Assembly: GCA_032358255.1 (NCBI GenBank)
Contig: JAULBX010026497.1
Location: forward strand, 1 to 46,807
Direction of reading: 5' to 3'
Origin: Heterotrichella gracilis
Lineage: Eukaryota > Sar > Xanthophyceae > Tribonematales > Xanthonemataceae
Length of the DNA: 46,807 bases
How positions within the stretch are numbered: position 1 is the first letter of the stretch; every line of letters begins with the position of its first letter. This document shows positions 941 to 40,645 of the stretch, piece after piece. Under the pieces are notes generated by a model. The model was given only the letters and a program-made list of their open reading frames with translations. It was not told the origin of the DNA and did no database searches. The position numbers and the translations under genes were made by a program.

Positions 941-3900
941 CTAAAGCCCGGCTGCAAAGGGGTAGAGGCGCACCACCCCATCCTGGCTGCTGGTCATCAA
1001 TCCCCCCTCAAACATGTGCAGGTCGCTCACCGGGGAGGTGGCGGTGGTGGCTGGGGGCTCGGTGGGGGCGGGGCTGGTGGTGGGGCCTGCGTGGGATGAG
1101 CACATTGCCGCCATCAGCAACAAAGGAAGGGCACATGGCACCCAAAACCTCCACATCGAGCACCTTGCCCAAACCCTCCAAGAGCACCCATTCTTTATCA
1201 ACCCTCAATTTACATCCTAAATGCCTCCAGTACCCACCTCAAACTACCCATCAGTGCCCCGCACCACCCTATCTTGTACCAACTAGGTCGCTGGGCTGCC
1301 ACATTTGCACCAGCGGTCAAACCACACCCCCAAACCCTACACCCAAACCCCCTCCCCCCCTCCCTCCGCCGCATTGCACCCCACCCAAACACTCCACCTA
1401 CAACCTCGCACCTATACTTAATACCCATTGAACGAAATTGGCCACCCACCTACACTCCGCAATAATCTTTTCAACCCAGAATCACGAGTCCGATCACAAA
1501 TCAATAACTTGATATACTTTTCTAGTAGAAAGTAGAAAGAAACAATACGGTATTCCTTTTATTTTTGGAGCCCAACCCCACACCACACCCTCCAAAACCC
1601 TCCAAGCTACCCACCTGCACCCCGCCCCGCTCGGATCTTGTCCACCAGATCGCTGGGCCCCCGCATCTGCAGCGACTGAAGCACCTCGCCAGCCGACAGG
1701 TCCCACACTATCACGCCCCCCTCCCGGCCCCCGCTGACCAGCACTGGCTTGACCACCCCTGGAGCCACTGGCAGGAAGCCTCCGGTGAGGGCGCTCACAG
1801 CGCGGTGCGTCTTCTTGTTGCTCCACAGCACGGCGCCTGGGGGTGAGGAGGGGAATTTGCTGTTAGGTATAAGAAGTGGCGCAAAGGTGCAGTGAAGCGC
1901 TTGGCGGTGCAGGTTGCGAATTTGTCTGACCCCTTCCCATGCACCGTGAATGCCCGGGCCAATCATCAGCATTTTAGGATGGCATCAGCCCTACGACCAC
2001 CACCACCATCACCACCCTTATCCTAACGCACCCAATTACCCCCTCACGAAAATTTGCCACCGCCCCATCACCTGCATGTCTGGCAACAAGTTGATCCCAT
2101 GCCGGATCTGTCAAAATGGGCAAAACAGCTTCCACAAACATGGGGAATAGGGGCACTGGGCAATTTATAATGCATTTTCCCGTCTGATGCCCCGCATCGG
2201 CACCCACCCACCACCACCATCACCCCACGCACGTTCTGTCGCCTGCCCCATCATGCGCATGTCCGCCAGCGAGATGGTTCCATGCTCGCTGCCCGTGGCG
2301 ATCAGCTGCTCGTCAGGGAGCACAAAGAGGCGGGTCACCACGTTCTGCAGGGGGGATTAGATTGATCAGGGGAGGAAACATGTACTTTCAGGTTGACTAG
2401 GGAAGGAATGAAGCACATCAGCACATGGTTAGTGCCAAAAACGAAACAGAGAATAGAAGTGGGGAAAGGAATATAGGGCCCACAATTGCCATGCCCCACC
2501 ACTGCCACCGCCACCTCCACCCCAATTACATTGTGGTGCGTGAGGCGCCTAAACCCTGAGCCCTGAACCCTAAATCCCACTAACATTGTGGTGCGTGAGG
2601 TGCCTAAACCCTAAGCCCTAAACCCCACTTACATTGTGGTGCGTGAGGCGCCCCACCACTGCCGATGCTGGGTGCACCAGCGTATCCAGCAGCGCCACAT
2701 GGCCGGTGCCAGAGCACAGCCCCGCCACTGCCAGGAGGGTGGAGCTGGCGCTGGCATAGGAGATGTCGCAGCCGCGCTTGGAAAGGCCCTGCAAAGGGGT
2801 GAGGATTGTGGTGTGAGGGGCAGGATGTAGATTCTCCCCGCAAGGCTGACAGCAAATGGTACATACCGCGTCAAGACTCAAATGCATGGCGCCTCAATGT
2901 GCAAGGCTGACTGCTAGTCTGGCGCAGTAATTGCTGGAATGTCAACTAAATATAACTTGTTCTGGGCAAATGGACGTGGCAAATCAAATGGGGCAGCTCC
3001 TGTTCTCAGTGAGTGAAGCAAGTCCTCAAGTCCTCACCACCTTGTGCTGACATGATATTTTTGTTAGGGTTTAGGGTTTAGGGTTAAAGGTTTGTGGACT
3101 CCCAGTGATCAGCTTTGAGTAGGGCATGCAAGCCTTACCTGTGTGCACCAGTCCGACATGCAAGCCCCCCTGTCATCAGCCACAGGCGCGTCCACGTGCC
3201 ATGTGGCAACCATTCCACCCTCCCCTGCACAGGCACAGCCAATCACAATCAGGATGGCAATTACACATTACACACACTTGCAACCACGATTATGGTTACG
3301 GGACAAAGACTCCACCTTCCCTGCATTGCAAGGGGACTGGGTGTCAATCAATGAGCGCATTAGAGAAACATAACTCTGTTTACTTTAGATAGTACATGTT
3401 AGACACACATAAACGTGATTGAGCATGGATAGTGAAGGCTGTCGGTGGATGCATCCCTTTAGGGCTGCACATGTAACTGTAAGCATGACTAGTGACAAAG
3501 CCTCATGCCATACCCTAGACACATGGTCACCATCTGCGCCCCTCCTCCCTTCCCCTCACCTATCGCCGCCATCCGCTCCCCTGATCCATGGAAACGAATA
3601 GCCTGTGGCGTGCCCCACCCATCCCCACCCCTGCGGGGGCGCCCAGGGAAACCCACGCCTGCCCCACCCCCCACCGCCCCCTGATCCCCCTCCCCCATTG
3701 GTCGGTACTGCGCCACACACTGGTGCTGGCCGTGCTCCCACAGGAACAGGCTGCCGCTGAGGTCGCCTGCGGGGTTTGGAATCATACATTATTTTGCATA
3801 AGGTAGATGGTGAGGCGGATGAAGAGGATTCAGTGGTTTTAGGGTGAAGTGGCAGGTTTGATTTTGGGGTTTTTGGTCAGGGTATACTTGTATGGCCACA

Positions 3901-6900
3901 CAGTGCTGGCTGTGCTGCTGAGATCGCCAGTGCTGGGAGGTAGAGGTGGTAAAGGTGTCTCACCATCTGCAAAGGGCGTTGGTGACGGGCAGGAGGGCTT
4001 GGAGCAATATGATGCTGGTGTAGGGCGCACTGCCTCCGCCCCTATCCAACCACCGCTAGCCATGTCTAGGCCATGGCCCATGAATGATAGTTCCTACCTG
4101 ACAGGTAGAACGGCCTGGAAGGGTGTGCCGCCAGCGCGCTGGTCTGTATGTTTGGCAGCTGCGGTTGGGCCAAGAAGGTCTGGGTGGTGGTCTTCACTAG
4201 GCGGCGCAGGGAGCTGAACGAGTCCTGCAGAGGGATATTTGTGTTTAGGGTCAGAATTTACGGTTAGGCTTTATTTAAGGTTATTTAATTTGTGGGCGGC
4301 TGTCAGCAAGGGCACAAATTGACCTGAGAACCATGCTCATCCCCATCTATCCCCAAAATCACGCCATTGATTTATTTAAACATTCAAAACCCTGAACAAG
4401 GCCCATCCCCCCCTGTGCACAGGAGTCGATGTGGCGTGCAATGACCTGGAAGAGCAAGGGCCACTGACTGCCACAATGGCAGGACCACCAGCCCTGGGGT
4501 TGAGACTAACCCCCAACAATCTCACCAAGTTCGCAAATTGTGCCTTTTTCTAATGTAGACTTCAGGCACGATTTAGGACATGACCCATCCCCACTGTGCG
4601 GAGAAGTCTATGAGGTCTGCAATAATCTGGGAGAGCGAACGCCCGCTATCCACCACAGTGGCAGTCCCACCGACCCCCAGGGCCAGAGATGGAAGCCGAC
4701 CCCCAATTATTTAACCAAGTCAGAAAACAAATGCTTTAAGACTCTATTTTGCAAACATGACCTGGGTTAATACCAATCGCGAACACCATCCCCACCTGCG
4801 CGGAGGAGTCGATGAGGTCTGCAATGACCTGGGAGAGCGAGGGCCCGCTATCCGCCAGTGTGGCAGTCCCAGCAGCCCCGGGGGTGAAGCTGGCTTCCAG
4901 CAATCCCCGGGATGATGTTGCAGCCACCAGGGATCGGGAGGTGGCGCTGTCCAGCTGGCGGGGGAGCAGGCACAGGGAGAGCAGGCGGTCCTGGGATGGG
5001 AGTAGTGAGATTATGCGGAATAGCGTGCCTTTCTCAAGGGATGGGGATAATTATTAGCGAGAGGAAAAAATGTCGCTGGGAAACAGGGAAGAGGGGACAT
5101 TGGAACTGCAGGGATGGTACGCCGCTGCAAAGAGGAATGGGTTGGGCGTTGCGCTGGAGTGCTTTCTCTTTTCATTCCATTTTTACCCCCCTGACATGCC
5201 TGGAGAAAGCTTGGGCACTACTGCTTTAGTCTATCCCTGAAACGTCAGGTAGGAACACAAAACCAACCGATGCCAGAGCCAGGGACCACCGGCTGCAAAG
5301 CATACTTCCCTAGATTTTGCTTCCCAGGGACCCACCTCGACCTGCAGCACGTGCTTGCACTCCCCAAACAGAGGCTCCGAGGCAGTTGCTGTGGCATCGT
5401 CCAACGCCCCTGACATGCCGGACGACAGCTTGGGCACCACCGATGCCGGGACATGTGCCAGCTTGCGGGGGGTGGTGCCAGGCCGCCTGGGCGGGGGGTG
5501 GGGGTGCGAGGCCAAGCCCTGCAGGGGTGGGGAGTGTTGTGGGTGTGTGAGGGTGGTGGGGCGGGTAAAATGCAGTAGTGTCACACCCGGTATCAGACAG
5601 TGGGGTGCATCTCCTGCATTTGACATGTGGTAACAAAGGGTAAGTGCAAAGGCAATTTATCCTGTATTGCAAAGTGGAGATATTTGGAAATTGAAAGAAC
5701 AGGTGGATTTCCTTCTCATTTCTCCCTCCTATGCATTCAGCAGCAACGCAGATACGACACACACACACACACACACTTACAGCACCCCGCCCCTTTAACA
5801 AACAGATGAAACAGGAACTGAAAACTCCCCACCCCCACACCCCACCTGCATGAGCTGATGGTGCAGCTCCACCACCACCCCCTGGTCCACCACCACCCCC
5901 GCCCCCTCAAGCACAGCCAGCTCAGCAGGGGGGGGCGCGTGCATGCGGGGGGTCCCCACCCCACCACCACCGCCACCACCACCACCGCCACCATCCATCA
6001 GCCAGTGCGACCGAGCCAGGCAGGCAGCAGCCATGCGTGCCTTTGAGCCCCCTCTCTGCACAGTAGCTAAGCTGGGGAGTGTGGAGTTCGGGGGCTCGAG
6101 TGCAGCGCGTTTTGCCTGCTGCGCGGCGATGGCGTCCTCTAATTGCACTGCCTCCAGTGCCATGATGAGGATCCCCGCCACGTCCATGGTGTATCCCAGG
6201 GATGCTGCAACCTAGGGGGAAAAATAATGGATAAGAAAGCGAAACTGGAGGGGTCGTATAAGGTGTTTTGTGTGTGTCATGAGGGCGGAAGAGGACATGG
6301 GAGGGGCAATGCGTACCACCGGCCAGTGCTGGTACCACACTCTGCATTCAGAGTAATGAGTGTCATCCGCGCTTGCCGCACTCCCACCTCCACAACTACG
6401 GGAAATGAGTACCCCAGCCGATCTTTGGACCCTCCACCACCTCCATCCATCCGCACCCCACAAAACCCTAAACAGTACCTGCAGCAGCTTCTCCAGATCC
6501 AGATTGCACTGCTCCGAGGGCTTGAGCGCATATGGGTAGCACCAGTGAAGCACCGTCACTGCACTGGCATACATCGCTGCACAGGCCAGCTGGCTACTGG
6601 CGCTGGGAGGTGCCAGTGGGGGGGGAGGGGGGCGAAGGGAGGCCACCGTCTGTAGGGCCTCGGCTCGCCTGCAAAGAAGGAAAACACAATAATTTCCTCC
6701 ATTTGATGGCTGTTTTATGTTATTCTTTGTAGTGGCCCGGAGGGGGGCCGAAGGGAGGCCACACCTCTGGAGGGCCTCCGCCCACCTGCGCACCAGGTGA
6801 AACATTACTTTCTTGTTAATGAATGGAGTGGATTTCACAATCATAGTAATGATAATGATGGTGATCATCGACGATCCAGTAACAGTAATAGCATAAGTAG

Positions 6901-9900
6901 CAGCAACTTATCGCGTAATATCTCCCCTTGGAGGTAATACGCGACAATATCTCCCCTTGGAGCGGGATGATTGTCGCGTATCCAATAATGAATCAAAATT
7001 CATAATGACAACAAACAATGATAGTAATCCAAGTATCAAGACTGATAGTGACGATAACAGGAAGTTTTCAAGAATAGAGCGCGGTACCTTTCTATCATCC
7101 ACAGCAGCGTTGCCGCACCCCAGTCATCGTGCGCAGCCTTTGCCTCGGGCAGCAACTCATCGCGCAGTATCTCCCCTTGGAGGGGGCTGGAGGGCCCCTC
7201 CGACAGGCGGCACAGCAGCAGCGCCAGCTGGGGGTCGCCCATCTCGTGCCTGAGGTGGGGTGGGGGGGGTAAGGAAAGTGAGCAGGTGCAATCCATGTTA
7301 AGTCAGGATCCTTCTAGAGGGGCCGAGTTGGGTGCCTGGAGGGGCCCTCCCCCCATTCCACCACAACCATCACCACCACCCACCTGCACACGCCCATCGC
7401 ATTACCCATGCTGCCCCCCAGAGAAAAAAGCAGCAGCCACGCTGCCGCTACTGACCCAGCAGCACACACCACCATCACCATCCTCATTGCCATTACCGCC
7501 GCCACCACCACCGACACCACCACCACCTCCATTACCCCCACATCACCACCTCCATTGCCAACAACAACAACAACAACACACCCGCTAGACCACCTCCAAT
7601 ACCACCACCGCCACCATCTCCACCGCCGCCACCCACCTGCACACGCCAACCGCATCACCCAGGCTGCCCCCCAGCAGGAAGAAAGCAGCAGCCAGCTCGT
7701 GCCGGTGCTGGCCCAGAAGCACAAAGGCGTTCTTGCACGCAGCCTGGCGGTGCTTCTCCTCGCCAAAATCGCGGGTCAGGAACTCGGTCAGCTTCTTGTT
7801 GCCCACGGTCTTGAACAGACCCTGCGGAGGGTTTCAGAACTTGGGGTTCAGAAAAAGCCTTGCCAGGATCACAAGTGGTCGGCAAGCAAACTGCGCTTTG
7901 GTCAGCTCTAATGCCAACCAAATCGCCACCGCTGCCCCATGCCACCACCACCACCACACCAACCCACCCCGCTGCACCACCCCTCCCACCTGCAACACCG
8001 CCTTCTTACCCCTCGCCAGGCACAGCAGCGCACAGTCGTGCGCATCCCTCGGGCAAGCAAACGTGCCTTAGTCAGCGCAGCCACCACCACTCCACCGCAC
8101 CACCCCACCCACCTGCAACACCGCCTTCTTGCCCATGGCCAGGTGCAGCAGCGCACAGTCATGCACCTCCTTCAGGCAAACAAAGTGCGCCTTAGACAGC
8201 GCCAGAGCCACCACCGCCGCCACCACCCTGCCGCACCACTCTCCGCACCACCCCACCCACCTGCAACACCGCCTTCTTGCCCATCGCCAGGTACAGCAGC
8301 GCGCAGTCATGCGCATCCCTCCGCCGTGCAAACTGCGCCTTGGCCAGCGCCTCGGCCTGCTTTGCCAGCGCAGCCTTGTCTGTGAGCCAGAACCCTGCCC
8401 CCAGCAGCCGCCACGCGGGCCAGGACATGCGGTGGTCGGTCTCGGCTGATTGGACTGCCTTGATGAACGACATGCTGTCATCAGCAGTGGCAGCGGCGGG
8501 TTGAACCTGGGGGTGAGAGGGTGGTGAGGAGCAGTAATTGTTTAGGGTTTAGGGTTTCATCAGCGGCGGATTGGACCTGGGGGTGAGAGGGTGGTGGGGT
8601 AAGTGGTGGTGAGGAGGTTTTAAGGTTTAGGGTTTAGGGTTTCATCAGCGGCGGGTTGGACCTGGGGATGAGGTGGTGGTGGGGTGAGTGGTGGTGAAAA
8701 GGGTTTAGGGTTTTATCAGCCCACAACTGAAGGCACCACCACACAGCACACCACCACACACCATGCACACCATCCACACACACAGCCCTCACCAGTGCAT
8801 GCGGCATCAGCTCCACAGCCGAAGCAAGCAGCGCCCCTTGCGTCTCAGAAAGCAGCGCCCAAAACACAGAAGCCATGCCCAAGCTGGGCAGGAGCTGCAG
8901 CTTGCTGGACCACTCCAGAGCAGCAGCAGCTGCACTGTGGGGGTGCGCGGCGCCGGCGCCGGTGGGGGGTGGGGGGTCTCTGGTGGTGGGGGTCTGGCCC
9001 GGGAGCCAGGAGAAGGACATGACGGAGGAGGCTGCGGGGGTGGAGGGTGGGGGTGTTTGAGAGTAGGGTGATAGGGTTTACGGTTATTGGTCTGATGGCA
9101 GTCCTGTATACATCCAAGGAAGTGTTGCGGAGGGAGCTAGGGAAGGGCTGACTGAGGCCAGTAAAGGGGATTTTGGTGGGGGAGGTCAAGGGGGGTGGAA
9201 TGGATGACGCCTCAGCGATGTGTCCATGACCCCCTCTGGGCCAGGCTGGAACATATGCAACCAATGCACTAAACGCAAACACAATGCCAACCCTGTGCAA
9301 ACCCATGTAAACTACCAATTTACATAAAACTGCAAGAAAGCACAACCGTAACGCAATGCAATGCATGCACTCACTCATGCTCTGCTTGGACTTGGCGGCA
9401 TCGGCCATGCTGGAAGCAGGCGTGGGCGTGCTGAAGCTCAGGGGGTTGACCTTGCTGGGCTCCTCCTTGCGATTGGCCCCAAGGGCTGCTGCCTGGCTGT
9501 CCACTGTGGTTGCCAGGCGCATGGAGAGAAGGGCCAATTTGGAGGGGTGGTCCATTTGGCCGATTGCGTCCTAGCGAAGAGGAGTGAGGGGGGGGTTTAA
9601 GATGGTGACTTGTGGTGGGTCAGGGTGTGTGGGGGGAAAGGGAAAGAAGGAGGTTGCTCCTGCATACACAAGGGGATATGGTACCTGGCCCAGGCAGCCC
9701 TAAACCGCTAACGGCTCATGTACTCATGTGGCTTTCAATTCATCCTGGGCCAAGTTTTTGCCTTCCTCACCTTGAGGGAAAAGGACTCCAAAGTGAGCAT
9801 AACCACCAGCCTAGCCACCTCCCATATTCACTTCCAAGGGTCCCTAGTCTAGGTTTTAGCATCCTCGACTTATACATTCCCATGCGATACCCTCGCCTAG

Positions 9901-12900
9901 GATTTCAAAGGGTCCTGCATACCCTATGTTATGGTTTTGCCGTCCTCACCTTGAGGGAAAAGGACTCCACGCTGAGCAGACCCCCCAGCCTGGCCACCTC
10001 CCTCAGCTCCTCCCCAGTCAAGCCAGGCACAAGGGGGGGAGGGTACACCTCCCTCCCATCCCCTCCCGCACCCACCTCCTCCTCCTCCCCGCCGTACTTC
10101 TTAAACAGGCTGGCCGCCACCGATTTCGGCCGCTCTATTTTCACCCCCGCCAGGGCCATGAGGTCGGAAACCTCCTCTGAAGTGAGCGGGCTGAGGTCAA
10201 TTTTGGGGACCGGTTTCCGCTGCTTCTGTTTGAAAAAAGTGGCTTTGGGGATGGCTGGCGCGGGTTTCTGGGATTGGGCAGCGGTGGCGGATGTCAGTTT
10301 CTTGGGTCTCATGGGACCATACTCGTCATCGTCAAAGGCCGGTTGGGGGGTGGGTTGGGGCTTTGGTGGGGGTGCGGGTTCCATGCCGAAACCCTCACCA
10401 AAGGCTGCCATATCGAGCATGCCTGCAAGAAAGGGGACCCCAGGTTAGGGTTTGTGGAGTGGGGCGTGTGTGAATAGGGTGGAGCAAAGCTGCACGATCA
10501 GTGTAGGGCAACCCTGCACGGGATAATTGCATCAAGTGCCTTGACACGTCAGAAGGGTTGTGCAAGTGCGGGGACAACAATAGCAGGAGTGGCCCTAACA
10601 TGCTCGAATGCTTGAAATACAGACATGACTCAATTTGAAATGTATGTGGTGTGGACGCATGCTGATGCCCACCTGAGTCTGATGCGCCGCCGCCCCCCAT
10701 GCCAAATGCTGACATGTCCAATTGGCCAGAGTCGAAGCCTGATGTGCCCCCGCCCCCTCCCATCCCAAAAGCCGACATATCCAGCTGTCCCGAATCGACA
10801 GCTGAAGTGGACGGGGGTTCAAATCCTCCACCCATGCCATATGCTGACATATTTAGCTGGCCAGAATCCATGGCTGATGCACCGCCACCACCCATGACAC
10901 CCATCTCAAATGCTGACATATCGAGCTGGCCAGAGTCAACTGCCGAAGTGGACGGGGGCTCAAATCCGCCTCCCATACCAAAAGCCGACATATCTATCTG
11001 GCCGGAATCCATGGCTGATGCACCCCCTCCTCCCATGTCCCCCATGCCAAATGCTGACATGTCAATCTGGCCAGAATCCATCGCCGATCCACCGCCACCA
11101 CCCATGCCAAATGCTGACATGTCAATCTGGCCAGAATCCATCGCCGATCCACCACCACCACCCATGCCAAATGCTGACATGTCAATCTGGCCGGAATCCA
11201 TTGCTGACTGTGACGCAGGTGCACCCCCAAATCCGCCCCCAGATGCCGACATGTCGATTTGCCCTGAGTCCATTGCGGCTTGGCCTGCGGAGGGGAGCGG
11301 GGCACTCGGCGTTAAATCGAGCTCACATGAAGGGGGCCTGCATCGGGTCATCACAGAACCCCCCCCAACCACCATCATCCATTGTACCAGAGTAACACAC
11401 AAAATTGAATATGCGCCAGGCTTGGTTGCGTCAGTCACAAAACTCACGACCATTTGCCACAATCCCGCTGGCCCAGTCCTTTCCATCGGTGGTTGGAAAA
11501 GCAAGCCCAGCCACTGCCCCTCGTCCCCCCTCCAGACCCATCCACACAAGACCTACCGTTTCCAGAGGCGCCTCCTGCCACCTCTGCCTGCCCATTAGAT
11601 TTGGACCCCACTCCAGGAGCGTCCCCAAATGTCTCCTCCACCCATTGGAGCACCGAGGTGTCCAAAAGGTCTCCCAGGGGGGCACAGGCAATCTCTTCAA
11701 GAGGAGGCGGGGTCCCCCTGCAAGGGAAGGGGGGTCATAATCATAGGCGTGGGGACGTGGCACACAGCAGGGCCGGAACGGATAGTGGGGATGCAGAGGA
11801 ATCTCCTTTGCTGAACATGAGCTGCACTGACTTCCTCACTTTTGTTTGGGAAGAACTCTCAACCCTCTAACCCCCAAATAGCAACTCTCCTGAACCATAC
11901 TCCACCCCACCCACCCCACCTGTAGCTCAGCACCGGGTCCTGTGTGTTGAGCCTCAGCCACGTCAGCAGGCGCCGAACCACCCCGGCCGCCCCGCCTGTT
12001 CGCCCCGCCCCTATCATCATCTTGAGGTTGGAGGGGTGGTAGTCGGGCAGAGGTCCACCCACAGAGTAGCATGCCTCGAGCAGGCTGGTGGCCTCGTGGG
12101 AGGTGGGATCTGTCACCTGGTTGGGGGCGAGAGGGTGGGGGTGAGTGGGTGTTTGTGGCGGGCGGTTGGCGTGCAGGTAGGTCGCATGTTCTCTAGAACC
12201 TGAAACGCTTACCCTTAAGTCCTGAGACCCTAAATCAGTAGCATGGCTCAAGCAGGATGGTGGCCTCGTGGGAGGTGGGGTCTGTCACCTGGTGGGGGTT
12301 GGGGGTGGGTGGAGGTTAACTTCAAGGTTTTGTCTGGCAACGGCCGTGGGAGGTGACTGATTTGCATGAGGTATGCAAAGCCAGGGCTCACGTACACAAT
12401 CAACACAATGGTGACTCTTATCTTGGCTGTATTACTTGCTGGGACACATCTCACATGATGAGTCACATGCCGCTCAACCCATCCCCCCCCCCACCACCAC
12501 CCACCTGATTGGGCACCTGCACCAGCTGGTTCCCAGTGGCAAACAGCACCCCACCGCCACCCCCCACCAGCCACGCCCCCGGGCTGTGGGGGAGCGCCAC
12601 TGCGGCTGTGCACACCCACCCCCCCGCGTGCGTCCGGCAGTACACCAGCAACCCCCACCCGCAGCAGGAGACGGCTACGGAGGGTACTGGTGCCAGTTGC
12701 GGGAGCCAGGCCAGCGCCGAGGGTGCGTCTGGGAGGGGTATGGATGCCTCGCAGGTGTAGTGGGGCTGGAGGGGGTGGGAGGCGGCTTCCCAGACCTGTG
12801 TGGAGGGTGAGGGGGGTTTAGTCAGTCAAAATATATTATATTTAATTTTTAATTTTCAGGCGTAAACCTGGTGCTCAGAAGATTGCAAGGTGTTTGTCAA

Positions 12901-27519: not shown

Positions 27520-27551
<32 letters not shown>

Positions 27552-30500: not shown

Positions 30501-32406
30501 GCAACAAGTACCTGCAGCGGCGTTCTGCTGCTGTTGTTGCTGCTGCTGCTGTTGCTGCTGTTGCTGCTGCTGCTGCTGCACCTGGTTGACTTGCCCCAGT
30601 GGCACCATACCCTGCATCTGTTGCTGCTGGTTTGGAGCACCCACCGGCACCATGCCAGCGTTGAGCTGCAGCATGTTCCCCCCTTGCATCTGCACCGCAC
30701 AGCAAGCAACCAAGTTAGTACGAGCGCCACAGCCAGGTTAGCACTACTGGGTATGCCTTACCCCAACTCAACAGCCCAAGGCTTGTCGAACCACTGCTCA
30801 CAATGTGCCAGATAGATGCCAGCCATTATGGCATACCCCAACACCACAAGGGCATTTTTTCAAACCCAGCGACAGGTACATCATAAACACAGAACTGAGC
30901 AACCCACGGCGTACCTGCAACTGCTGTTGTTGCTGCTGCTGCTGCTGTTGGTGGTGCTGCACCTGCACCGCCATTGGGTTCTGTGCGCCAGACACTGGAA
31001 CCTGCATCCCACCTCCCATCTGGGCTGGCACCATTCCTACAGGCCACACATATAGACTGTCAGCGCGGCTCAAGGATGCTCGTTTGTGTGCAACTTCAAG
31101 TGGGTAAGTCTATGAGTGGCTACAGAGCGCTGACATAGCAGAGCACTGTGTGGAAAGATGTGCGTTAGACATCATGTGGGTACCTGCACCCAATGGGTGC
31201 CATGAGGACCCCTCACAACCTCTCCAACTCACCGTTGATCATAATCCGCTGTGGCTGCTGCGCCTGAGGTTGAGCAACCTGCAAGGGCATAGCGCGCTTG
31301 TCAGAACTAGTTGGGTGGGTGTGGATGTTCAGTGGTAGGAGGCAAGTCATCTAGTGCAGTGGCCTGCAGTCCGCAGCAATTGTTGCTGCAGAGGTTGTTA
31401 CCTGAATGGTGCCGCCAGGGCCTGCATTCCATTCTCGTTGACCCCTGAGAAGCACAGGAGCGCCATTGCTCATCACTGACCCACTCCCTGCTTGCAATGC
31501 AGCCTGCCCCCTCAGGATGCCTGGCTGCATCTGCGGTTGCTGCATGTTGCTGACAGTCACCAGGTTGACTGTGCTATCCGCCTTCGGCAATGCTGGGCCC
31601 GACATGGTCATATTCTGTGCCCCGTTCAGCGAAGGTTGCTGCTGGAGCCGATAGTTGACATTGGGATTGTTCATGCCGGTGTTGGTCACAAAACCCGTTC
31701 CAGCCGCTCCCAGGTTGATGGAACCCTGCAAACCCACGTTAGCTTGCCCTTGAAGCATTCCCGCTTGCATCGGCACAGGCTGCGCCCCCGGCTGCTGCAC
31801 TACCTGGCCCATTTGGTTTGTGAAGTTCATCTGCTGCCCCAGGTTAGGACCGGAAACAAACCCGTTGCTGCCGGGGAATTGCTGCAAAGTGATCCCCCCA
31901 GCAGGACGGGCTTGCTGCTGAGAGGTGTTTCGAGACACCATTTGCCTAGCGACCTTCTGAAGCCGCAGCTCAAGCGTTCCTGCGTCTTCATACTCGTCCT
32001 GTGTACCCAGTAACAACACCAATCAGCACTGGGTGCAGGCAGAAAAGGCGAGGATTATAGCCATGAAAACAAGCGGTAGCCGCACCCGAGACTTGGCAGT
32101 CTTGTACAAAGCCTCTTCGAGCCTTTTTATGAAGTCCGGCAGCTTGTCTTGCCACTCTTGCGTCACATTGGGCTTCTTTTGGTTGAACAGAAGGAAGCTG
32201 AGCACAGGGAAACACAGCGTTCAGCGTCCAGCAGACGGTCAGTGAGCACCGGAAACGGACAGGATGCAAGTCTACAATGCTCCATCTTACATCTGGTTGA
32301 TAAGGTTCTTCCTGGTGGGGTTGTCCTGCTCGCTGTGCCAAGTCCTCCAGTTGGTTGCCTGTCTCTGGGGGGCCTGCCCTGATGGCACCCCCTGTTGCGG
32401 CAGCAT
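21247..32406 (-). CDS. HAC1: p300/CBP-type histone acetyltransferase, plant HAC family, 24 exons
   Basis: Nuclear transcriptional co-activator that acetylates histones using acetyl-CoA. The joined exons give 1517 aa. Residues about 20-95 match the N-terminal KIX-like region of plant HACs ('[16 protein letters not shown]', '[18 protein letters not shown]'). Gln-rich linkers follow to about 440. TAZ1 spans about 465-550 with its Cys/His ligands ('[19 protein letters not shown]', '[13 protein letters not shown]'). Cys-rich and PHD fingers lie at 735-847 ('[19 protein letters not shown]'). The HAT domain spans about 850-1240 ('[16 protein letters not shown]', '[19 protein letters not shown]'). 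A ZZ finger lies near 1345-1380 ('[16 protein letters not shown]') and TAZ2 at 1400-1490 ('[16 protein letters not shown]'). There is no bromodomain, as in land-plant HACs. The ATG at 32406 directly precedes the conserved N-terminal region; TGA is at 21247-21249. Confidence 0.95.
21565..21772. repeat. HAC exon 23 3' part, degenerate intronic copies
   Basis: 21636-21683 resembles 21723-21772: CCCCGTGAC.TT.T.TGGTGCA, then GTC.CC(A/G)CGTGCT(A/G)GAAC. A weaker third copy may lie near 21568-21600. Both copies are in the exon 23-24 intron within TAZ2. Confidence 0.65.
21915..22075. repeat. HAC exon 23 acceptor edge in three copies with telomere-like filler
   Basis: The true edge is CTTGCGCGCATGCGG|CTGCGGGGAGGG at 21914-21940. 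Copies follow near 21985-22012 and 22050-22075. TTTAGGG-like tracts lie between them at about 21953-21970 and 22020-22037. The middle copy keeps a complete CCCCGCAG acceptor. Confidence 0.85.
25910..26120. repeat. HAC exon 15 5' region with two intronic copies and telomere-like filler
   Basis: GGTCCTTGGC.TC.AGCATGGACTGC.G occurs in exon 15 near 25911. Related segments lie near 26011-26045 and 26080-26110. A GGGTTTAGGGTTTTAGGG tract lies at about 25987-26006 between the exon and the first copy. Confidence 0.75.
26825..26942. repeat. HAC exon 13 5' edge, copy in the upstream intron
   Basis: CAGCAGCGGGCCCTTGGCTTTCCC is present at about 26827-26850 (exon edge) and about 26918-26941. The filler between includes GGGTTTAGAGTTTAG. 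Confidence 0.85.
27074..27440. repeat. HAC exon 12 3' end with donor, duplicated
   Basis: 27071-27130 copies 27375-27434: CACCTGCCCCGCC.TGCGCC, then GCCGCGCG, TCCAGGTG and TCCTCC. The copy lies about 304 bp downstream in the intron and keeps the donor. Confidence 0.8.
27378..31036 (-). repeat. Polyglutamine-coding CAG/CAA runs in HAC linker exons
   Basis: Gln runs are coded in the exons at 30915-31036, 30512-30689, 28204-28365, 27798-27920 and 27378-27570. Several run up to an exon end, for example ten or more Gln at the 30512-30689 3' end and twelve at the 27378-27570 5' end. The codons are mixed CAG and CAA. Gln-rich linkers are usual in HAC and CBP/p300 proteins. Confidence 0.85.
29455..29627. 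repeat. HAC exon 8 5' end, degenerate copy
   Basis: 29583-29627 resembles 29468-29508: GCGTCGGGG.CGTTG, then GGCCC..GGTCACC.GCT. TTTAGGG-like sequence at about 29565-29576 lies between them. Confidence 0.65.
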
Positions 32407-33347
32407 ATTGCTAGACCGTAGAAGGTAACATAGCCACCGGTGGTTTCAAACCTGAAGTGCCAACGAACTAGCTGCTAGCAAGCCTTGCTTTGCCCACTTT
32501 ATCAACCTGGCTTGAAACCCAGGTGAAAACTGCTCGAGGCGGAGTGGCCAGGGGGTGTATGAGATGCAAATTCCCTCCCGAAGGTCGATATGATAGTAGT
32601 TCACAACGAGGAAGGATTACACATCAAACCTGATCAGGGGTTCTATGATGGAAATATAATGCAACAGGGGGTTATAAATGACCCTTTCATCATATGTGAT
32701 CATACATAGATTACCCCAAATCAATACGCTGGAGGGTTTGCGGGGCCCAATAAGGGTATACTTTTTCCCTTTGCCGCGCGCGACCGAGTGCAGCAAGTGT
32801 TGTTCGGTCAGGCGTGACGAGTCTCCACCACCACATTGCCGAGGGCAGGACATCATAGTTCAAAATACTTAAAGCTTTACTACGAAGGTGGCAGCAGGGG
32901 AGGAGTGAAGCTGTGGCCAGGCCTTGGATTGGACTTTGTCATCACCCAGCCACAAGGGAAAATGGTTGCGAGAAGGGTGCACAGAATTGTATACACATGT
33001 TATGTGTTATATTGGGATAATATCAAGCCAACGAACGGTCCACGAGTCAACGAACAATTCAGGAAAAAGAGGCACGCTGTACTGTGGGACTGGCAGGCAT
33101 TAGGTCAGGTGCCTCGTGCACCCAAAACAGTACACTGGTTGTTTAGAGTATCACCGTTGCACAAGGCACTGCAGCCACCACTCATGGGCCCAAGGGACTC
33201 GCAGTTCTCCCTGACCTATCCAACGTCTGGTGCACTGCCCTCCAGTTAGCAAGGGGGTGCAAAAGGTGGGCGGATGCCCAAAAAGGTGGGCGCAGCCTAA
33301 GCGCTCACAATGTAGCTTGCAAAGCCACCAAATCCCTGCTGAGTGGC
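32407..33347. other. Spacer between the EAF1-like 3' end and the HAC start
   Basis: About 940 bp that must hold the EAF1-like 3' UTR and the HAC promoter and 5' UTR. I see no gene and no clear TATA box. AT-rich stretches occur at 32580-32720. Confidence 0.55.
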
Positions 33348-34954
33348 TCAGGGGTTGGTGTTTGTGGGCTGCACCCCTGGCTGCAACACTGGGATGCCAA
33401 ACTGCCCTTGCGGCATGGCAATCTGCATGGGCGCTCCAATAGCCTGGGACCCCAATCCCTGCGGGAGCGCCATCGCCATCCCGGGAGGCATCACCTGCAG
33501 CGCTGCGGCTGCGGCCTGCGGCGAGCTTGCTATCCCGCGCGCCTGCCCGTTCTGCGCCAAGGCGATCGACGCCATGGGCGACTGCATGGCCACAGCGCCG
33601 AGCTGCCCTGGTTGCAGAACTGGCGCCATGGCTTGTAGCTGCAGCCAGGTCACAGGGACAAGTGAGTCACCAGACCCGTGTGTATCAGTATGCAACGCAT
33701 CCATCCCAGTGCTTCAAGCCGCCGCCTCTCAACAAAAATGCTGGTGAGATTGTTGGGCAACTAAATAACAACCCATAGCATGCATGCAACCTCCACTGCC
33801 AGCGCTGGGGTAGCTCCTCAACCAACCCAAACTACACCAACCAAATACAGCGTAGGGGAAACAAGCTATTGGTTTACCAGGTCCCTGCTGATGCCTGCAC
33901 CTAGCAAGGAAAGGCCAGTCACAGGACTGGGCAAGTTGGTGTGCAACCAGGTGTGCAGCGTGTACCAACCTGGAACACAGCAGCTGGGGCCGCCCCCGCA
34001 CGTATGCCCTGCACGCCAGGCGCCAGTGCCCCCATCACCTGCTGGCTCTGCTGTAGCCGCTGCTGCACCTGGAACTGGGCCTGCTGCTGCATCGCGGCGA
34101 CTTGCGCTTGCGAGGCTGCACGCGGGGCACACAGTCTCAGTCAGCAGGGAATCCCAGTGGGGCACCCTTGCCCAAACAAGGCGCCAGGGTTTCTATGGGG
34201 CAGGCACTTGGCAGCGGTTTGCAAAGGGCGAAATTGCATAGGGTGTGGCCGCTATTGGACTGGCCATTCTGCTGCAGCGCGGCAATTTGTGCTTGCGAGG
34301 CTGCACACAGGTTCAGCTGCTGCTTGTTGGTCTTCCGCTGCTCCGGAGTTTAGGAATCAGGGTGTAGGGTTTGGGTTCAGGCCCACCTTGCACAGTACCC
34401 TGCGTCGCCTGCTGCTGCTGCCGCTTCTGCAGCTGCTGCACGATGGCGTTGCGCTGCTGAGGGGTCAGCTGCTGGCCGTTGAACTCCCCGGTCTGCAGGA
34501 TCTGCTGCAGTTTCTGGTAGGAGATGTTGACGGTGCGCGTCTGGCTCAGTCCCTGCTGCTGCTGTGCCCCTGGTTGGCCCTGCGCCTGCGCCTGCGCCTG
34601 CGCCTGCGCTTGGAGCTGGGCTTGGACCTGCGCCTGGACCTGGGCCTGCACACGGGGGAAGGATTTCACTTAGGGTTTTCTGGCATTATTGTAGTTGGTG
34701 AGCTGCCAATTTTGAACCTAACTCTGAACTCACTCCCGTAGCGGTTCAGAGTTAGGTTTCCTACTTAGTAGGAAGCGAAGGCAGGTTGTGAGGGACAACG
34801 TGTGCGCTCACGAGCAATGGACACAACTCGGGCGTGGCACTTGGCCAGGAGTATGGCGTGTGGCCATTGCTGGTGGATGCATGGTACTGATACTGTAACT
34901 GTAACACCGACACAGGTTGGCGTAGCTTCTGGCCGTACCTGCATCGCGGCAGCC

Positions 34955-34986: not shown

Positions 34987-37900
34987 TGCTTGCAGCTGCT
35001 GAACCTCCATCGGCGAGGCGCCAACCTGCGGGGTGCACAGATAAGGGTTAAATTGCAGCTTCAGCTTTGCATTGGCCAGGCGCCAACGGTTAAATTTGCA
35101 GCTTCAGCTTTGCATTGGCGGGTGCATAGATTAGGCCTCACAATGCGCAGCCGTTGTCCTACTCTTGGGGCAAAAGTAGCGCGTGGCAGGGGCAACCTTT
35201 CCCACCAGACCCATTGGAAAGGGCAACAAGGAGTATTTCAATGGTCCATTTGAATTCCCTAAGGTACATGTTTCACAACATCACAGTACTCCAGGGAGAA
35301 TGTTACAAGAAGAATGCCCTTGCCCATTTAGGGTACTTGTTAGAATTTTCATCTGCGGCGCACCCTCCCTGTCAAAGCAGCTACAGCTGCAGCGACAGCC
35401 ATGGCAACTTGCTGTAGCTGCATGTTTTTGTCGACCCACCTTCTTCAGCTAGTTGATAAACAGATAACCGCTGGACGTGAAACAACATATCGCGTTCTCG
35501 AACAAAATACAGCCATTTCCACCTGATAAACACATTGCCCTACCTGAGGCATGCCCGCCATGGCAGCCTGTTGTTGCTGCAAGGGCAAGGGCAAGGCGGC
35601 GCCGGGGGCCACAGCAGCAGCGGCAGCGGCGTTGTTGGCAGCGGCCTGCGGTTGCGCAGCCCCCACCGATGCCGGGGCGGGTGAGGTGGCAGAGGTGGGC
35701 TGGGCGTGGCCGCCGCCTGGAGGCTGCGGGGCAGGAGGGGGCTGCACAAAGAGGGCACATTCTTTATTTCCAGGTGCACATGTTCAAGGTGTAGGTATAA
35801 TGTTCAGGTTCCAGGGGAGTGCAGGCTGCGCATGAGGATCAAGAATGCAAACACACGTGCAGTACTCCGGGTTTGGGGGGTAGCTGCACACAGAGGTGGG
35901 ACGTTAACTCCAGATGAATTGCCCTACACCCAGCCACCAGCTGCTGCTGCACCTGCGTCGCCTGCACGGCTTCGGGGCGGCTGCAATTCTGCTTGGGCTT
36001 GCAAGTGAGGCCGTTAACCTCTAAAGGGGTGAGCATGCACTAGACCTTACACCTATAACCCTATCCCCGGCGCACCATTTGCTGCTGCGACTGCGTGGGC
36101 TGGACAGCGGCGGCTGCTGCAGCAGCGGCCGCGGCGGCGGCGGCGGCCGCGGCCGCCTGCTGCACCTGTGCCTGTGAGGTCAGCTCGATGATCTCCATGG
36201 GGTTGAGCATGCGGCCGCCTGTGGAGAGCATGAGCTTGGCCACCACCGCCTCGTGGGAGACATGCGTGTCCTGGCGGATACGCCGCGACTGCAGGTTGCG
36301 CGGGTCCTCCTGCAAAGTGGAAGCAACGAGTCGATGAAAATAATACCAAAGATTAGAGATGCCCAAACAGGGAATTGGCGGGTCCCCCTGAGCCAAGCAC
36401 ATGCCAATGTGGCCTGGTAGATCAAGTATACCCCACACCCAATGCAGGCTGCCCCGCCTGAGCGCGCACCCACCTTCTCTGTCGCGCGCTTCTGCTTGAA
36501 GATGGTCCCCACGTGCACCATGGCCTCCATGGTCTTGCGCAGCACCGCGTCTGTCACGGGGAGGGACTTGGTGAGCAGTTCGCGCGCGAACACCTTGTTG
36601 ATGTTCATGGCGGCCAGCGCGCTCTCCTCTGACACCTCGGGGTTCTGGTCGGGGTTCTGCAGTGGAGAGATTAGGGTTCAAGTTAGGTTTCTGCGGGGCA
36701 TACTCAGCGATGGATGGATTTAGGGTGAAGCAAGAAGATGAATAATCAGAAAACACAGAACAGAGGGACAACCACAAGGAGGGGAAGTTGCAGCGCGCCA
36801 ACGTGCAGCGCGCCAACGTGGGGATTAGGGCTTAATAATGTTTTTGGCACATGCCAAGATAGCCTTCCAGCGCTGCCTGCACATCCTGCACTGCTCAGGG
36901 CGGCGGTGGATGCCCTTCAGAACCCTACACCCTAAATTGCAGTGTTGCGGGTGAGAGGTACCACCATGGCTGAGGTGTGGGGCTTCCCCTGTAAGCAGCG
37001 TTCAGTGCCAACATGGTCACGGGTTGTGGTGGGGCGTACCGAGATGGTCTTGAAGCGCTGCCTGCACTGCTCAGGGCGGCGGTAGATGCCCTGTAGCACG
37101 CTGCTGGCGCTGAGCACGTCGCTCACCAGGTGCCAGTTGCTGCCAAACTCGTGCACGATGGCGCACAGCAGCTGGTCCTCCTGGGTGGTCCACACAGCCA
37201 GCGCCCCGGCCCCGGCCAGCGTGAGCGCCGACCGCTGCTTCAGCAGCTGCACATGGTGGGGCACACACTCGTCAGGAGGGTTTTGGGTTCAGTAATTGGA
37301 GGCACGATGGCACGTGGGTAACCAAGGTGCAAGGGTTAGGGTTTAGGGCGAGGCGCTGCAGCAGGTCCTCTTGCGTGGTCCACATAGCCTGCGGAAAGGG
37401 CCCGACCAAGGTCAGCGCAGACCGCTACTTCAGCAGCTGCACGTGGCGGGGAACACCGCCGTCAGGAAGGGCACAGGGTTGGGCAAGAGCGCACAGGGAG
37501 TTGGAGTTAAGGGTTTGAAGTGTGTGCCGCAGGCGCTTGCACCACCACATGTACCACCAGGACACAGGGGTTTAGGGTTTAACATGTAGGGTTTGTTAAG
37601 CGCGCGTACCCCCGCAGCTGCCGGTGTAGTGAACGAGTCCATGCGCGCCAGGGCGGTGGGCTTGTTCCCCAGCCTGCTTGGCTTGCCCATCTGCTGCTGC
37701 TCGGCTGCGCGCTTCCTGGCAAGTTCCTGTGTGAAGGAATCGGCCCCAAATGTTACTTATGGCCCTGACCCCATACCATCAATAATGCATATTTGTTGAA
37801 ATACACCCTTGCAACAATTTTGCCAGCTTGGCTTCCCTCTACATTCCAAGCCTACTAGATTACCATAACCAGGTCAACATTTAAATGACATACCCTCCAC

Positions 37901-40645
37901 CCAGCAGTGCAGGATTCAACCTGGTTGTACACTGCCCCCTTGTAGTCCACCGGTGTCAATAGCAAAACAAATTTTGGTGAATGTCCGGCATCAATTTCAA
38001 ATGACTGTTCAGGATTTAGTAGACCTGCCCCAATCCCTACCTGCACAGCCTTCTGCTTTGCTAACTTCTGCTCCCTGATGTTGCGCATGACCACCAGGTC
38101 GTCGTCCTCGTCGTCAAACTCGCGACCCTTGCGCTTGAGGCGGTCGGGCCTGCGTGGGGGCAAACAGGGTTTAGGGTTAGGGTTTAGGGGTTAAGAGTTA
38201 CTCGGGGGCAAACAGAGTGTAGGAGTTCGAGGTCAGGGCCACTCGTCTTCACACTGCAGCCATTGCGCTTGCAGCGCAGGCCCCGCACCAGGCCCCGCAC
38301 CTTCTTTAGGTTCTAGAGGTTTAACTCTCCTGCCAGCAGTCCCTAAACCTGTACCTGTACTTCTAGCGAAGCCGCATGACCCCCCGGCACCTCACTGACC
38401 GCTACTGCAGGGACTGCTAGCCTCGACCGCTGTGTGCCCTTCTTTTGGCGAGGACTGCCCCATTGCGCCAGGCATGCCCACCATGCACCCTAAATACAGA
38501 ACCCTAAACCCCACAAGCGGCATGTCAGCAGCATGACCCTGTGTTTTACCGCACCTGCCCGTTCCTGCAGGGACAACCAGCCCCGGCCGCTGCATGCCCT
38601 TCTTGTTGGCCAGCACCACCCCCTTGCGCCCAGGCATGCCCACCATGGACCCCTCCAGCCCAGGCTCGGTACTGTAGTCCTCCATCAGGTGCGCGGGAAG
38701 CTTCTTCTTGCGCCGCTTCTTGCCTGGAGGGTTGGGAGGAGAAGTTTAGTTAGGGCTCCGGATACAGGACTCAAAATACAGATTTCTGGACACACGTGCT
38801 CTACGCCCTGGTCCTGCCCCTAGCGCCTGTTTCACCGCCATCCATCATCTTTGATTCCTGAGCCAGCATCTGCGCCTCAACCAGCCGCATACACCGTACA
38901 TGCTAACCCTACATCCTAAGCCATGCAGCCCTAAACCCTTAACCCTAGCCAGCAAACCCTTCCCCTTCCGCCTTGCAGCATGCACTGTCCCCCCAGTGTT
39001 TACCTGTCTCGTCGTCCTCCATGACCTCTGATTCCTGCGCCAGCCTCTCCGCCTCCACAAGGGCAGCCTGCTCGGCCTCGTACACCTGCTGCGCCTGCTG
39101 CGACTTGACCCACTCAACCTCAGAGTCATAGTCGCGCACAAGCTGCACACAGGGGGCAATTGCTCAGCGGCGGGTGCGTGCGCGCGTGGGTGGGGTGGGG
39201 GTTTGAGGCGCGGCCACGGTTGTGCTTGTCAGGAAAAAAGGGGGCCAGGTTCACAGCCGATTGTTCACCGATTCAATGATTGTAATTACTTGACATCCTT
39301 GTCAGCTGTTTTAATATACGAGTTGGTGTAAAACTGAGATCATACATACGCTTTTACTTCTTTGCCACAAATGTTCAATAACAAAATTAAGAATAAAAAT
39401 AATATCCATGCCCGCACCTGTTCATGCTCCACCGCTTTGATCTCCTCGTCCGCTTCCAGTTGCTTCAGGACCGCATCCAATAGGCGGTCGTCGCACTGGT
39501 ATTGGAACACAGCTTCGGTGATGAGCGGCGGCGTTGAAGGCTCAAAGAAACCTGCAGCCATCACAGGTTTCAAGGTCCATGCCATCCCAGGATTCAAGGG
39601 AACCAGAGATATGCAACCACACTATGCATGGTGACCAGCTGGGCTGCCAATGCAGAACCCATTATCACCAACTACTCACCACCTGCGCCAATGTCCCGAC
39701 AGGCCTTCATGCAGTAGGTAACCACTGAGCGCCACTACTCCCATACGCATCCACACCCACTACACCCACCCATCCTGCACCCATCCTGCACCCACCATCT
39801 GCAACGATGTCCCTGAAGATGTACTCCTCCTCCTCCTCCTCCCGCGTCTTCCTGCCAGAGGGCTGGGCAACCTCCGCGGCATGGTCCAGGGTGCGAGACT
39901 TGCAGACCTCCACATCGGCGTGCGCAGCTTCCGCCTCTGGCGTGTGCTGCAGGCCCTTCCTGCCGGCTTGCGCGCACGCGTAGGCAAAGTAGCGCGCAGT
40001 ACATTGTTTCCACAGCCGCTCCTGCAGGACCAGATAATCAGACTTTAGGGTTTAGGGTTCGGGTAAGGTAGTCATGTACAAGCAACGCAAAGTAGCAGGT
40101 GGCGCACTGCCTCCCCAACGCTCCACAAGACGATTCAATCTCCAGTGCATATGAGTGGAAGTGTTAGACTTTAGGGTGACCCAGGGTACCCCGCTAACCA
40201 AGGCAGAACGTGGCGTAGGTATTCTACCAGGGAACAGCCAGTGCAACCCAAGACTGTGAGAGTTGGTGTAAGCAGTGCTACGGCAGATGCTGAGCTGGCT
40301 ATATCACTGGAACGCAACTAACTGACTAGATTCAAAACGGTGCGCACCTGAGCAAAGTCAACTGCCAGCCACTTGGCTTCTTTCAGAAGGTAGTCCCACT
40401 GGCCCAACTCCCGGGGAGGCTCTTCACTTGGCTTCTCATACGCAAAGGCCACCAGTGGTTTCACCGAGCCATCAACCTGGACGCGGTTTGAACAAGTTAA
40501 GGACTTTTCTCGGGAAATCCTTGGTAAGGGTCTGACCACCCAAAAACGAGCTTAACTGTCCCACAGGGTTGGAGAATGCGTTGGAGACCTGGCATACCTT
40601 GAAGGGGGCCTTGCGCTTCTGTAACGCGGCTTCAGCAGCCTTCAT
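33348..40645 (-). CDS. EAF1: EAF1/Vid21-like HSA-SANT scaffold of a NuA4-type acetyltransferase complex, 17 exons
   Basis: Nuclear platform protein expected to hold together a NuA4-type histone H4/H2A acetyltransferase complex. The joined exons give 905 aa. An HSA domain lies at about 40-85 ('LGQWDYLLKEAKWLAVDFAQ' then 'ERLWKQCTARYFAYAC'), followed by an acidic stretch ('REEEEEEYIFRDIVAD') and a basic region. A SANT/Myb-like domain spans about 385-440 ('VWTTQEDQLLCAIVHEFGSN', 'GIYRRPEQCRQRFKTIS'); both the spacing and 'YRRPEQCRQR' resemble plant EAF1. The C-terminal half is rich in Gln and Ala, with a run of about 18 Ala near 555. No SNF2 ATPase is present, which separates it from p400, SWR1 and INO80. 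The protein starts unusually close to HSA. A pyrimidine-rich AG just upstream of the ATG hints at a 5' intron, so an upstream exon may be missing. Confidence 0.85.
34080..34315. repeat. EAF1-like exon 16 5' end with acceptor, duplicated
   Basis: 34268-34313 resembles 34081-34125: CTGCTGCA.CGCGGC.A.TTG.GCTTGCGAGGCTGCAC. The copy keeps a TGTGCAG acceptor complement. Confidence 0.75.
35016..35122. repeat. Short intronic tandem duplication touching the EAF1-like exon 14 acceptor
   Basis: AGGCGCCAAC and GCAGCTTCAGCTTTGCATTGG each occur twice in direct order at 35016-35076 and 35080-35122. The first AGGCGCCAAC is the 5' edge of exon 14. Confidence 0.75.
35935..36130. repeat. EAF1-like exon 12 3' end, degenerate copy
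   Basis: On the minus strand 35935-35990 reads 'EAVQATQVQQQLVAG' against 'AAVQPTQSQQQMV' at the exon end. The copy is direct and lies about 140 bp downstream in the intron. Confidence 0.7.
36862..37105. repeat. EAF1-like exon 10 (SANT) 3' end, copy in intron
   Basis: 36868-36922 resembles 37050-37095: AGCGCTGCCTGCAC, then TGCTCAGGGCGGCGGT.GATGCCCT. CCCTACACCCTAAA filler follows the copy at about 36923-36936. Confidence 0.85.
37145..37455. repeat. EAF1-like exon 10 5' end with acceptor, copy upstream
   Basis: 37349-37452 resembles 37160-37263: CAG(C)TGGTCCTC.TG.GTGGTCCACA.AGCC, then GACCGCT.CTTCAGCAGCTGCAC.TGG.GGGG. GGTTAGGGTTTAGGG filler at about 37335-37349 lies between the copies. Confidence 0.85.
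38405..38660. repeat. EAF1-like exon 7 3' end, copy in intron
   Basis: 38408-38489 resembles 38567-38650: GGGAC..C.AGCC.CG.CCGCTG..TGCCCTTCTT, then GGCATGCCCACCATG. CCCTAAATACAGAACCCTAA filler follows at about 38487-38506. Confidence 0.85.
38850..39065. repeat. EAF1-like exon 6 3' part, copy in intron
   Basis: 38851-38886 resembles 39026-39060: CTTTGATTCCTGAGCCAGC against CTCTGATTCCTGCGCCAGC, then CTC.GCCTC.AC.AG. CCCTAAACCCTTAACCCTA filler at about 38930-38948 lies between. Confidence 0.75.

Follow-up and report, generated by a model that had tools for sequence, protein, structure and literature searches.

Roughly one intron in five of Heterotrichella gracilis carries a copy of an edge of its own flanking exon, and this exon-edge duplication is real and genome-wide. 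The copies are direct and local, occur across the sampled genome and are of all ages. The new DNA is probably a block made of the copy and the filler that parts it from the exon, put in at the exon edge by staggered-break repair and then spliced out. Biologists have long asked how introns acquire their DNA, and the affected introns keep a readable record of their lengthening. With copy identity spanning 71% to 100%, one genome allows measurement of how often such events occur, where the breaks fall, what supplies the filler and how splicing is affected.

Gene models and samples

The window (the whole 46,807-nucleotide stretch analysed) is one contig of a 68.5-Mb assembly, and the sequence sampled here amounts to 0.5% of one genome. 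Genes were modelled with a self-trained HMM gene finder, for which the window and a 280-kb sample served as training material. Across both it predicted 62 genes with 381 introns; median lengths are 297 nt for introns and 149 nt for exons, and the introns show a clear donor and acceptor consensus. All exon edges discussed below are predictions of this model, which errs in places, for example with introns of 24 and 37 nt. Two sets of introns were drawn from it: one of 326, leaving out genes that score below 25, introns below 60 bp and introns whose flanking exons are short, and one of 363, leaving out introns below 80 bp. All genes of the window that could be named by domain lie on the minus strand.

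941–7532, minus strand: HMM model distinct from that of gene 1, though it may form the 3' part of that gene; weak beta-propeller matches below cut-off
7585–19079, minus strand: gene 1, RAVE subunit 1 (RAVE1)/DMXL-like protein (HMM model and Rav1p_C, PF12234)
21247–34645, minus strand: gene 2, CBP/p300-type histone acetyltransferase (KAT11, ZZ and two TAZ fingers)
36076–40645, minus strand: gene 3, Myb/SANT-domain protein (Myb_DNA-binding, PF00249, in exon 37040–37246, E 1.3e-9)

The Rav1p_C domain of gene 1 is matched in exon 8267–8506 (E 5.7e-12) and, below the curated cut-off, in exon 11916–12116 (E 3.9e-5). Gene 2 matches p300 structures with E 1.7e-23; the model joins it to gene 3, and the boundary between the two is approximate. 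Within gene 1, positions 10690–11276 hold coding repeats in units of about 60–70 bp that translate to DSGQxDMSAFGMGGG, which the model calls intron.

Exon edges recur in the adjoining introns

A search of the window that made no use of annotation found 33 local direct repeats and no inverted ones at start distances of 20–500 and a score of at least 24, in keeping with the original prediction that the copies are direct and never inverted. Six of the 33 are the coding repeats at 10.7–11.3 kb, and seven further inverted repeats, which start within 20 bp of each other, are hairpins. Twenty other stretches, 200 kb in all, gave 43 direct repeats versus 1 inverted at a score of at least 24, and 67 versus 14 at a score of at least 18. 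Direct, same-strand, local repeats at the joint are a mark of staggered breaks, and the 43 to 1 ratio fits that class.

The repeats fall where exons meet introns. Among the 326 introns, 69 (21.2%) match their own flanking exon on the same strand at a local-alignment score of at least 18; 20 of these lie in the window, which contributes 64 introns to the set. At the same score, reverse-complemented introns match in 3 of 326 cases (0.9%), exon edges taken from other genes in 5 of 1630 tests (0.3%), and non-adjacent edges within the same gene in 1.7% of 297. The original prediction had named the similarity of introns to their own exons, set against that to other exons, as a check that could refute it, and own-exon similarity is far higher (69/326 versus 5/1630). 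Its further claim that pieces of one exon do not turn up in other genes, so that transposition is not the source, is borne out by the same 5 of 1630, by the four fillers searched, all of them unique, and by the one exon piece searched genome-wide: this 68-bp sequence is found once in the exon and once in that exon's adjoining intron, with no third copy.

A finer scan, from which a coding-repeat artefact at 11039–11138 was removed, found copies in 73 of 363 introns, 85 in all, of which 47 are on the donor side and 38 on the acceptor side. In the window the automatic scan gave 26 edge copies in 21 introns, or 25 copies in 20 of 68 introns once the artefact is taken out; a tandem-repeat scan and inspection by eye added three arrays that the automatic scan had missed (2521–2652, 8480–8713 and 21915–22076), for a total of 28. 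This agrees in number with the 'about 28' places first proposed, a list that was incomplete and that cannot be matched to ours one by one; the five places for which three copies had been claimed all hold them. Beyond the window, copies are found in 53 of the 295 introns (18.0%, locus-bootstrap 95% interval 9.9–25.7%), and these come from 14 of 24 loci, so copies are unevenly spread between loci. Copies make up 4.1% of intron bases. The sites in the window are as follows, with percentages giving the identity of the copy.

2521–2652, minus strand: three copies of a donor edge, with degenerate TTTAGGG repeats after each (tandem-repeat scan, sense-strand reading)
4396–4905, minus strand: donor edge of exon 4796–4990 in three copies about 180–200 bp apart, including the copy at 4594–4682 (83%)
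6739–6781, minus strand: copy of acceptor edge 6624–6664 in intron 6669–7102 (93%; 79% over 75 bp in the annotation-free list)
6900–6934, minus strand: copy of exon piece 7149–7183 in intron 6669–7102, ending short of the splice site (91%)
7964–8350, minus strand: donor edge in three copies, the exon copy being 8211–8350 or 8113–8215 depending on the model (tandem-repeat and edge scans)
8480–8713, minus strand: acceptor edge in three copies, with the exon head and then AAACCCTAAACCCTAAA between copies (tandem-repeat scan, sense-strand reading)
9756–9823, minus strand: copy of donor edge 9935–10002 (88%), with a 111-bp filler found in a single genomic place
12237–12316, minus strand: copy of acceptor edge 12065–12142 (86%), with a filler that opens with a telomere-like tract and is found in a single genomic place
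18554–18602, minus strand: copy of exon piece 18333–18379 (81%)
21622–21678, minus strand: copy of donor edge 21711–21767 (80%)
21915–22076, minus strand: three copies of an acceptor edge, separated by CCCTAAA-like filler (tandem-repeat scan, sense-strand reading)
24732–24826, minus strand: copy of donor edge 24916–25013 (73%)
25240–25267, minus strand: copy of p300 HAT exon piece 25139–25165, ending short of the splice site (93%)
26081–26106, minus strand: copy of exon piece 25912–25937, with a telomere-like stretch between (92%)
26900–26939, minus strand: copy of acceptor edge 26810–26849, with telomere-like filler before the used acceptor (88%)
27074–27178, minus strand: copy of donor edge 27378–27482 (76%)
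34259–34300, minus strand: copy of acceptor edge 34074–34115 (83%)
36885–36926, minus strand: copy of exon piece 37061–37102 (88%)
37353–37436, minus strand: copy of acceptor edge 37163–37246, with CCCTAAA-like filler (79%)
38395–38490, minus strand: copy of donor edge 38555–38652, with TTTAGGG-like filler (83%)
38827–38884, minus strand: copy of donor edge 39004–39061, with TTTAGGG-like filler (78%)

Repeat pairs were also collected: 166 pairs reduced to 114 clusters once low-complexity repeats and overlapping pairs were removed, and 74 of these join an exon to an intron. In the 74, all 32 donor-edge copies lie downstream and all 28 acceptor-edge copies upstream; 13 involve the exon interior only. 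A single pair takes in both edges, and tandem duplication of whole exons was rejected on this count. The exon parts of copies measure from 21 bp up to 110 bp, the latter being the limit of the probe. Copies lie 58–361 bp apart in the window scan and 86–365 bp apart across the 74 pairs. In this small sample the distances cluster at about 100–124 and 157–221 bp, possibly a nucleosome-scale spacing.

Some sites are arrays (8480–8713 and the sample locus L017 are tandem), and 18 of the 85 edge pieces have an additional copy within the same intron. Such sites are what ordinary tandem duplication with minisatellite slippage would leave, becoming visible at exon edges through the one copy that is conserved. 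However, where listed pairs reach 88% identity or more, their copies are separated by 27 to 261 bp, a stretch that in some cases contains a further copy, and in the clearest two-copy pairs (98%, 91% and 88%) the intervening 65, 73 and 105–111 bp are not shared. Moreover, the simulation described below includes the detection bias on which this explanation depends, yet does not reproduce the observed pairs. We therefore think slippage very unlikely as the general cause.

Filler and copy appear to enter together

We lean, with modest confidence, towards reading the exon-edge copies as scars left where staggered breaks were repaired at the edges of exons. Two nicks on opposite strands, some 20–130 bp apart, would straddle a splice site; fill-in of both ends would double the segment between them; and the ends would be rejoined with filler, often degenerate telomere repeat, to give segment, filler and segment. 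The exon-proximal copy would go on serving as the exon edge, and the filler with the other copy would become intron, be spliced out and then decay. The staggered break, the fill-in and the source of the telomeric DNA are steps that we infer. Splicing would in this way hide the scars of faulty break repair, one route by which introns lengthen.

As filler and second copy become intron, the intron should grow by the repeat distance, and subtracting that distance should leave an ordinary intron. This is what is seen: the corrected lengths resemble those of event-free introns (Kolmogorov–Smirnov (KS) p=0.63 for 61 edge events; p=0.23 for 47 introns with a single event). The coding-repeat artefact is still among the 61 events, here and in the tests that build on them, such as those of identity profile, telomere tract, polarity and break motif.

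In the main alternative, a templated insertion, repair of a break within the intron involves a polymerase that switches to the exon edge close by, copies that edge and switches back, so that the copy is pasted into an intron that already exists. Copied segments do tend to start at the splice site and extend into the exon, as if primed there. The length test rejects this alternative if the paste falls at a uniform place (p=0.0016), but lets it pass if the distance is fixed (p=0.12). If the staggered break is right, the intronic acceptor copy should lie at what was the native end of the intron. Pyrimidine content upstream of that copy, at 0.568 (n=26), differs both from native acceptors (0.640, p=0.04) and from random intron interior (0.517, p=0.02); where the intron part of the copy is short (n=18) it is 0.531, random-like, as a paste would have it. 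A further point counts against the staggered break itself: doubling an acceptor would leave the old one upstream in a working context, which may often harm splicing.

The original prediction had offered staggered-break repair or polymerase re-priming as the cause. The first fits better, because of the intron-length fit and the telomere-like DNA between the copies, and re-priming keeps its fixed-distance version. The pyrimidine test does not decide; on balance we favour the staggered break over a templated insertion, which we consider unlikely.

Telomere-like DNA lies between the copies

Several contigs of the assembly start or finish with perfect CCCTAAA arrays, and the genome's own telomere repeat (TTTAGGG) also lies inside the chromosome. 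Telomere heptamers occur at 8.86 per kb in introns, compared with 1.02 for the reversed motif, at 0.80 versus 0.51 in exons, and at 3.07 versus 0.89 elsewhere. Intron growth here is linked with telomere-like DNA, which is about nine times as dense in introns as the reversed-motif control. Heptamers are present in 48 of 69 introns with copies and in 97 of 257 without (odds ratio 3.8), a difference that persists in the four classes of intron longer than 200 bp. Uninterrupted telomere arrays, 38 bp or more in length and perfect, also occur mid-contig, near 52.1 kb in C109 and near 45.7 kb in C120, both contigs of about 105 kb.

The position of this DNA bears on how it arrived. At donors, telomere-like sequence lies beside the exon-proximal, used copy in 14 of 32 cases, far above the 1.98 expected from position-matched native sites (p=1.9e-9), and at acceptors in 5 of 27, with 1.64 expected on the same basis (p=0.02). 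It adjoins the intronic copy at its exon end in 21 of 59 events and the used copy in 19 of 59, and is found outside the intronic copy in 6 of 61, against 3.6 of 59 expected from native flanks. Random windows of event-free introns contain it in 4.2% of cases, and the reversed control motif is found in 7 of 59, 4 of 59 and 2 of 61 at the three positions, respectively. By bases, 14.0% of filler is telomere-like, compared with 6.0% of the remainder of the same introns and 2.2% of event-free introns. This enrichment inside the block points to joint insertion of filler and copy; a templated insertion makes no prediction of telomere-like DNA beside the used splice site.

A telomere-like tract is present in 27 of 59 fillers; the other 32 have none. 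The youngest event, at about 8034–8109 in sample locus L019, has an exon part that is 100% identical. About 24 bp around the donor CAG|GTG are doubled, with some 30 bp of near-perfect TTTAGGG repeat between, and the order is exon end and GTG, TTTAGGG repeat, and the exon end again with its native donor. Tracts are about as degenerate in young events (0.87 in 11) as in old ones (0.86 in 15), which makes a plain telomerase product doubtful. Nor does strand polarity support telomerase, with 15 of 27 tracts fitting, and 10 of 20 among those flush with the junction; for want of this polarity we do not class the events as interstitial telomeric insertions. Introners, transposons or another mobile element as the source of filler were rejected, as each of the four fillers searched genome-wide, by a search that skips very common words, occurs in a single place.

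Within the 326 introns, telomere-like motifs have a preferred orientation. Over the final tenth of the intron length, 130 motifs have the C-rich strand as sense and 7 the G-rich one, and in the first tenth the two stand at 89 to 83. The bias at intron ends would fit a filter imposed by splicing, as AG occurs in the G-rich strand.

Exon edges are affected beyond uniform breakage

We compared the observed pairs with a neutral simulation in which staggered duplications fall uniformly, survive only if splicing is spared, decay and are then detected in the same way; length, age and constraint were drawn uniformly from ranges that we chose. The simulation yields 436 exon–intron to 589 intron–intron pairs, and the genome shows 74 to 12. 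Of the 114 clusters, 12 more have both copies touching exons and 16 lie in unannotated DNA. Random placement alone would give 43% exon–intron, 28% intron–intron and 29% both-exon pairs. Among pairs of at least 86% identity the ratio is 15 to 1 by list count, versus 140 to 201 simulated. Exon edges are thus affected about eight times beyond the prediction of uniform breakage, in young pairs too. The templated insertion fares no better here, as it should copy intron pieces as often as exon edges.

The copied segments also end near the splice site. In a profile from which pairs above 97% identity were left out, identity is about 0.84 along the exonic stretch; past roughly −5 on the acceptor side and +8 on the donor side it drops close to background. 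Of the 11 edge pairs with identity of 86% or more, 64% have a copy with no more than 15 intron bases, compared with 19% in the simulation; below 80% identity the observed and simulated shares agree. The simplest form of the staggered-break model, with breaks blind to gene structure, fails on the edge excess and on these ends, which imply that either the breaks or a later step favour exon edges. The preference for edges over intron interiors, and the stops just outside the splice site, are not explained by the model as it stands; as a guess, the G-rich strand that runs out of the exon at both splice sites may be especially prone to breakage or to taking up telomere repeat.

One way to meet both is active targeting, in which breaks or template switches are aimed at exon edges by splice-site sequence, transcription, chromatin or methylated CpG of exons, with telomere repeat captured at G-rich ends. 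Beyond the eightfold excess and the stops at the splice site, two properties speak for it. Read out of the exon, both edges tend to be G-rich past the splice site (G at about 0.26–0.59 per position, an informal reading). Second, transitions (C-to-T and G-to-A) in intronic copies affect 60 of 416 CpG positions versus 110 of 1808 elsewhere, a 2.4-fold excess that suggests CpG methylation in this genome. However, inspection by eye of 61 events shows no clear motif or CpG peak where the copy breaks off inside the exon, the polarity of tracts is random, the excess depends on a simulation with chosen ranges, and the intron part of copies below 80% identity is as long as simulated. We regard targeting as distinctly unlikely.

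A more speculative and likewise unlikely reading makes splice sites hot spots in this lineage for both breakage and telomere capture. Ends would break, and acquire telomere-like DNA, on the G-rich strand that runs out of the exon. Telomere-like DNA holds splice signals: CCCTAAAC supplies pyrimidines and a branch-point-like CTAAA, and the other strand supplies GT and AG. An insert bringing such ready-made signals could be spliced out at once, and introns might grow outwards from exon edges over generations.

Retention of exon edges, and ends at the splice site, might also be expected if the copies were functional alternative splice sites or decoys under selection. Their splice dinucleotides are retained at about the rate of other dinucleotides (19 of 26 acceptors versus 17.8 expected; 23 of 30 donors versus 20.9), and the identity of copies ranges between 71% and 100%; selection on copies as splice sites was rejected on the unraised dinucleotide conservation, and we hold this explanation to be highly improbable. 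Two other origins were tried and rejected. Intron birth by duplication (the AGGT model) would make donor and acceptor regions alike in the same register, which is so in 0 of 381 introns at a score of at least 12 (0.4 expected) and in 11 at a score of at least 8 (7.75 expected). For an RNA-derived copy, continuation into the neighbouring exon was seen in 0 of 61 events at a score of at least 8.

Relation to described systems

The event appears to work like a staggered-break duplication, and its combination of features, copy size, frequency and focus on exon edges were not found described in the literature searched; exon-edge copies with telomere-like filler are absent among the matches listed from titles and abstract openings of the open literature. 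The original prediction went further in saying that no described system matches, and this does not hold: two reports describe intron repeats from staggered breaks in Daphnia (PMC4202315) and duplication over an exon border in potato (PMC4974935). It had not included the telomere-like filler, the genome-wide extent, the edge excess beyond neutral expectation or the segment ends near the splice site.

The closest parallel is Daphnia pulex. There, direct repeats within introns are read as scars of staggered double-strand breaks that lengthen introns; among new introns 55 of 90 have such repeats, and among established introns 100 of 617, and most new intron DNA is of unknown source (PMC4202315). 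Those repeats of adjacent exons are 4–12 bp long and tied to intron birth, whereas the exon parts here measure from 21 bp up to the probe limit of 110 bp and the introns have no birth signature, and the filler, unlike that described there, is often telomere-like. The potato gene carries, according to the summary of its report, a tandem genomic duplication over an intron–exon border, splice signals included (PMC4974935); that is a single case giving a new intron, whereas here many cases lengthen existing introns and filler lies between the copies. Direct repeats near the borders of many introns have also been read as break scars (PMC11782384), but they are 4–30 bp long (mean 11.4 bp), were sought within 80 bp of borders and are attributed to intron insertion.

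In mammals, telomere repeat is found at mended breaks, with duplication of the flank in 6 of 130 rodent and 4 of 25 primate cases in the data excerpted (PMC2246262). The likeness lies in telomere repeat at breaks, sometimes with doubled flanks; duplication is a minority outcome there, and here no polarity was seen and tracts are degenerate even when young. The duplication shares are not comparable, because our events were detected by their doubled flanks. Where the protruding ends of a break are complementary, small tandem duplications arise through CST–Pol alpha-primase: the staggered ends are filled in and the stretch between the nicks is thereby doubled, as proposed here; the exon-edge bias and telomere-like filler do not feature in its abstract (PMC8355091). 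Introners, as summarised in PMC9860276, are likewise insertions in genes that splicing removes, but form families of similar elements, some with 3–9 bp target duplications, whereas the four fillers searched here are unique. In two plant genomes, the regions 5' of genes are preferred sites of telomere motifs (PMC3022908).

Other repeats in the window

Between the gene models, a 45-bp unit occurs twice at 95% (19824–19915). Near the contig end, at 46510–46600, an inverted repeat consisting of GGGTCCCATCTCAGTTTTGGTCAT and its complement was spotted by eye; it is perhaps a small inverted-repeat element.
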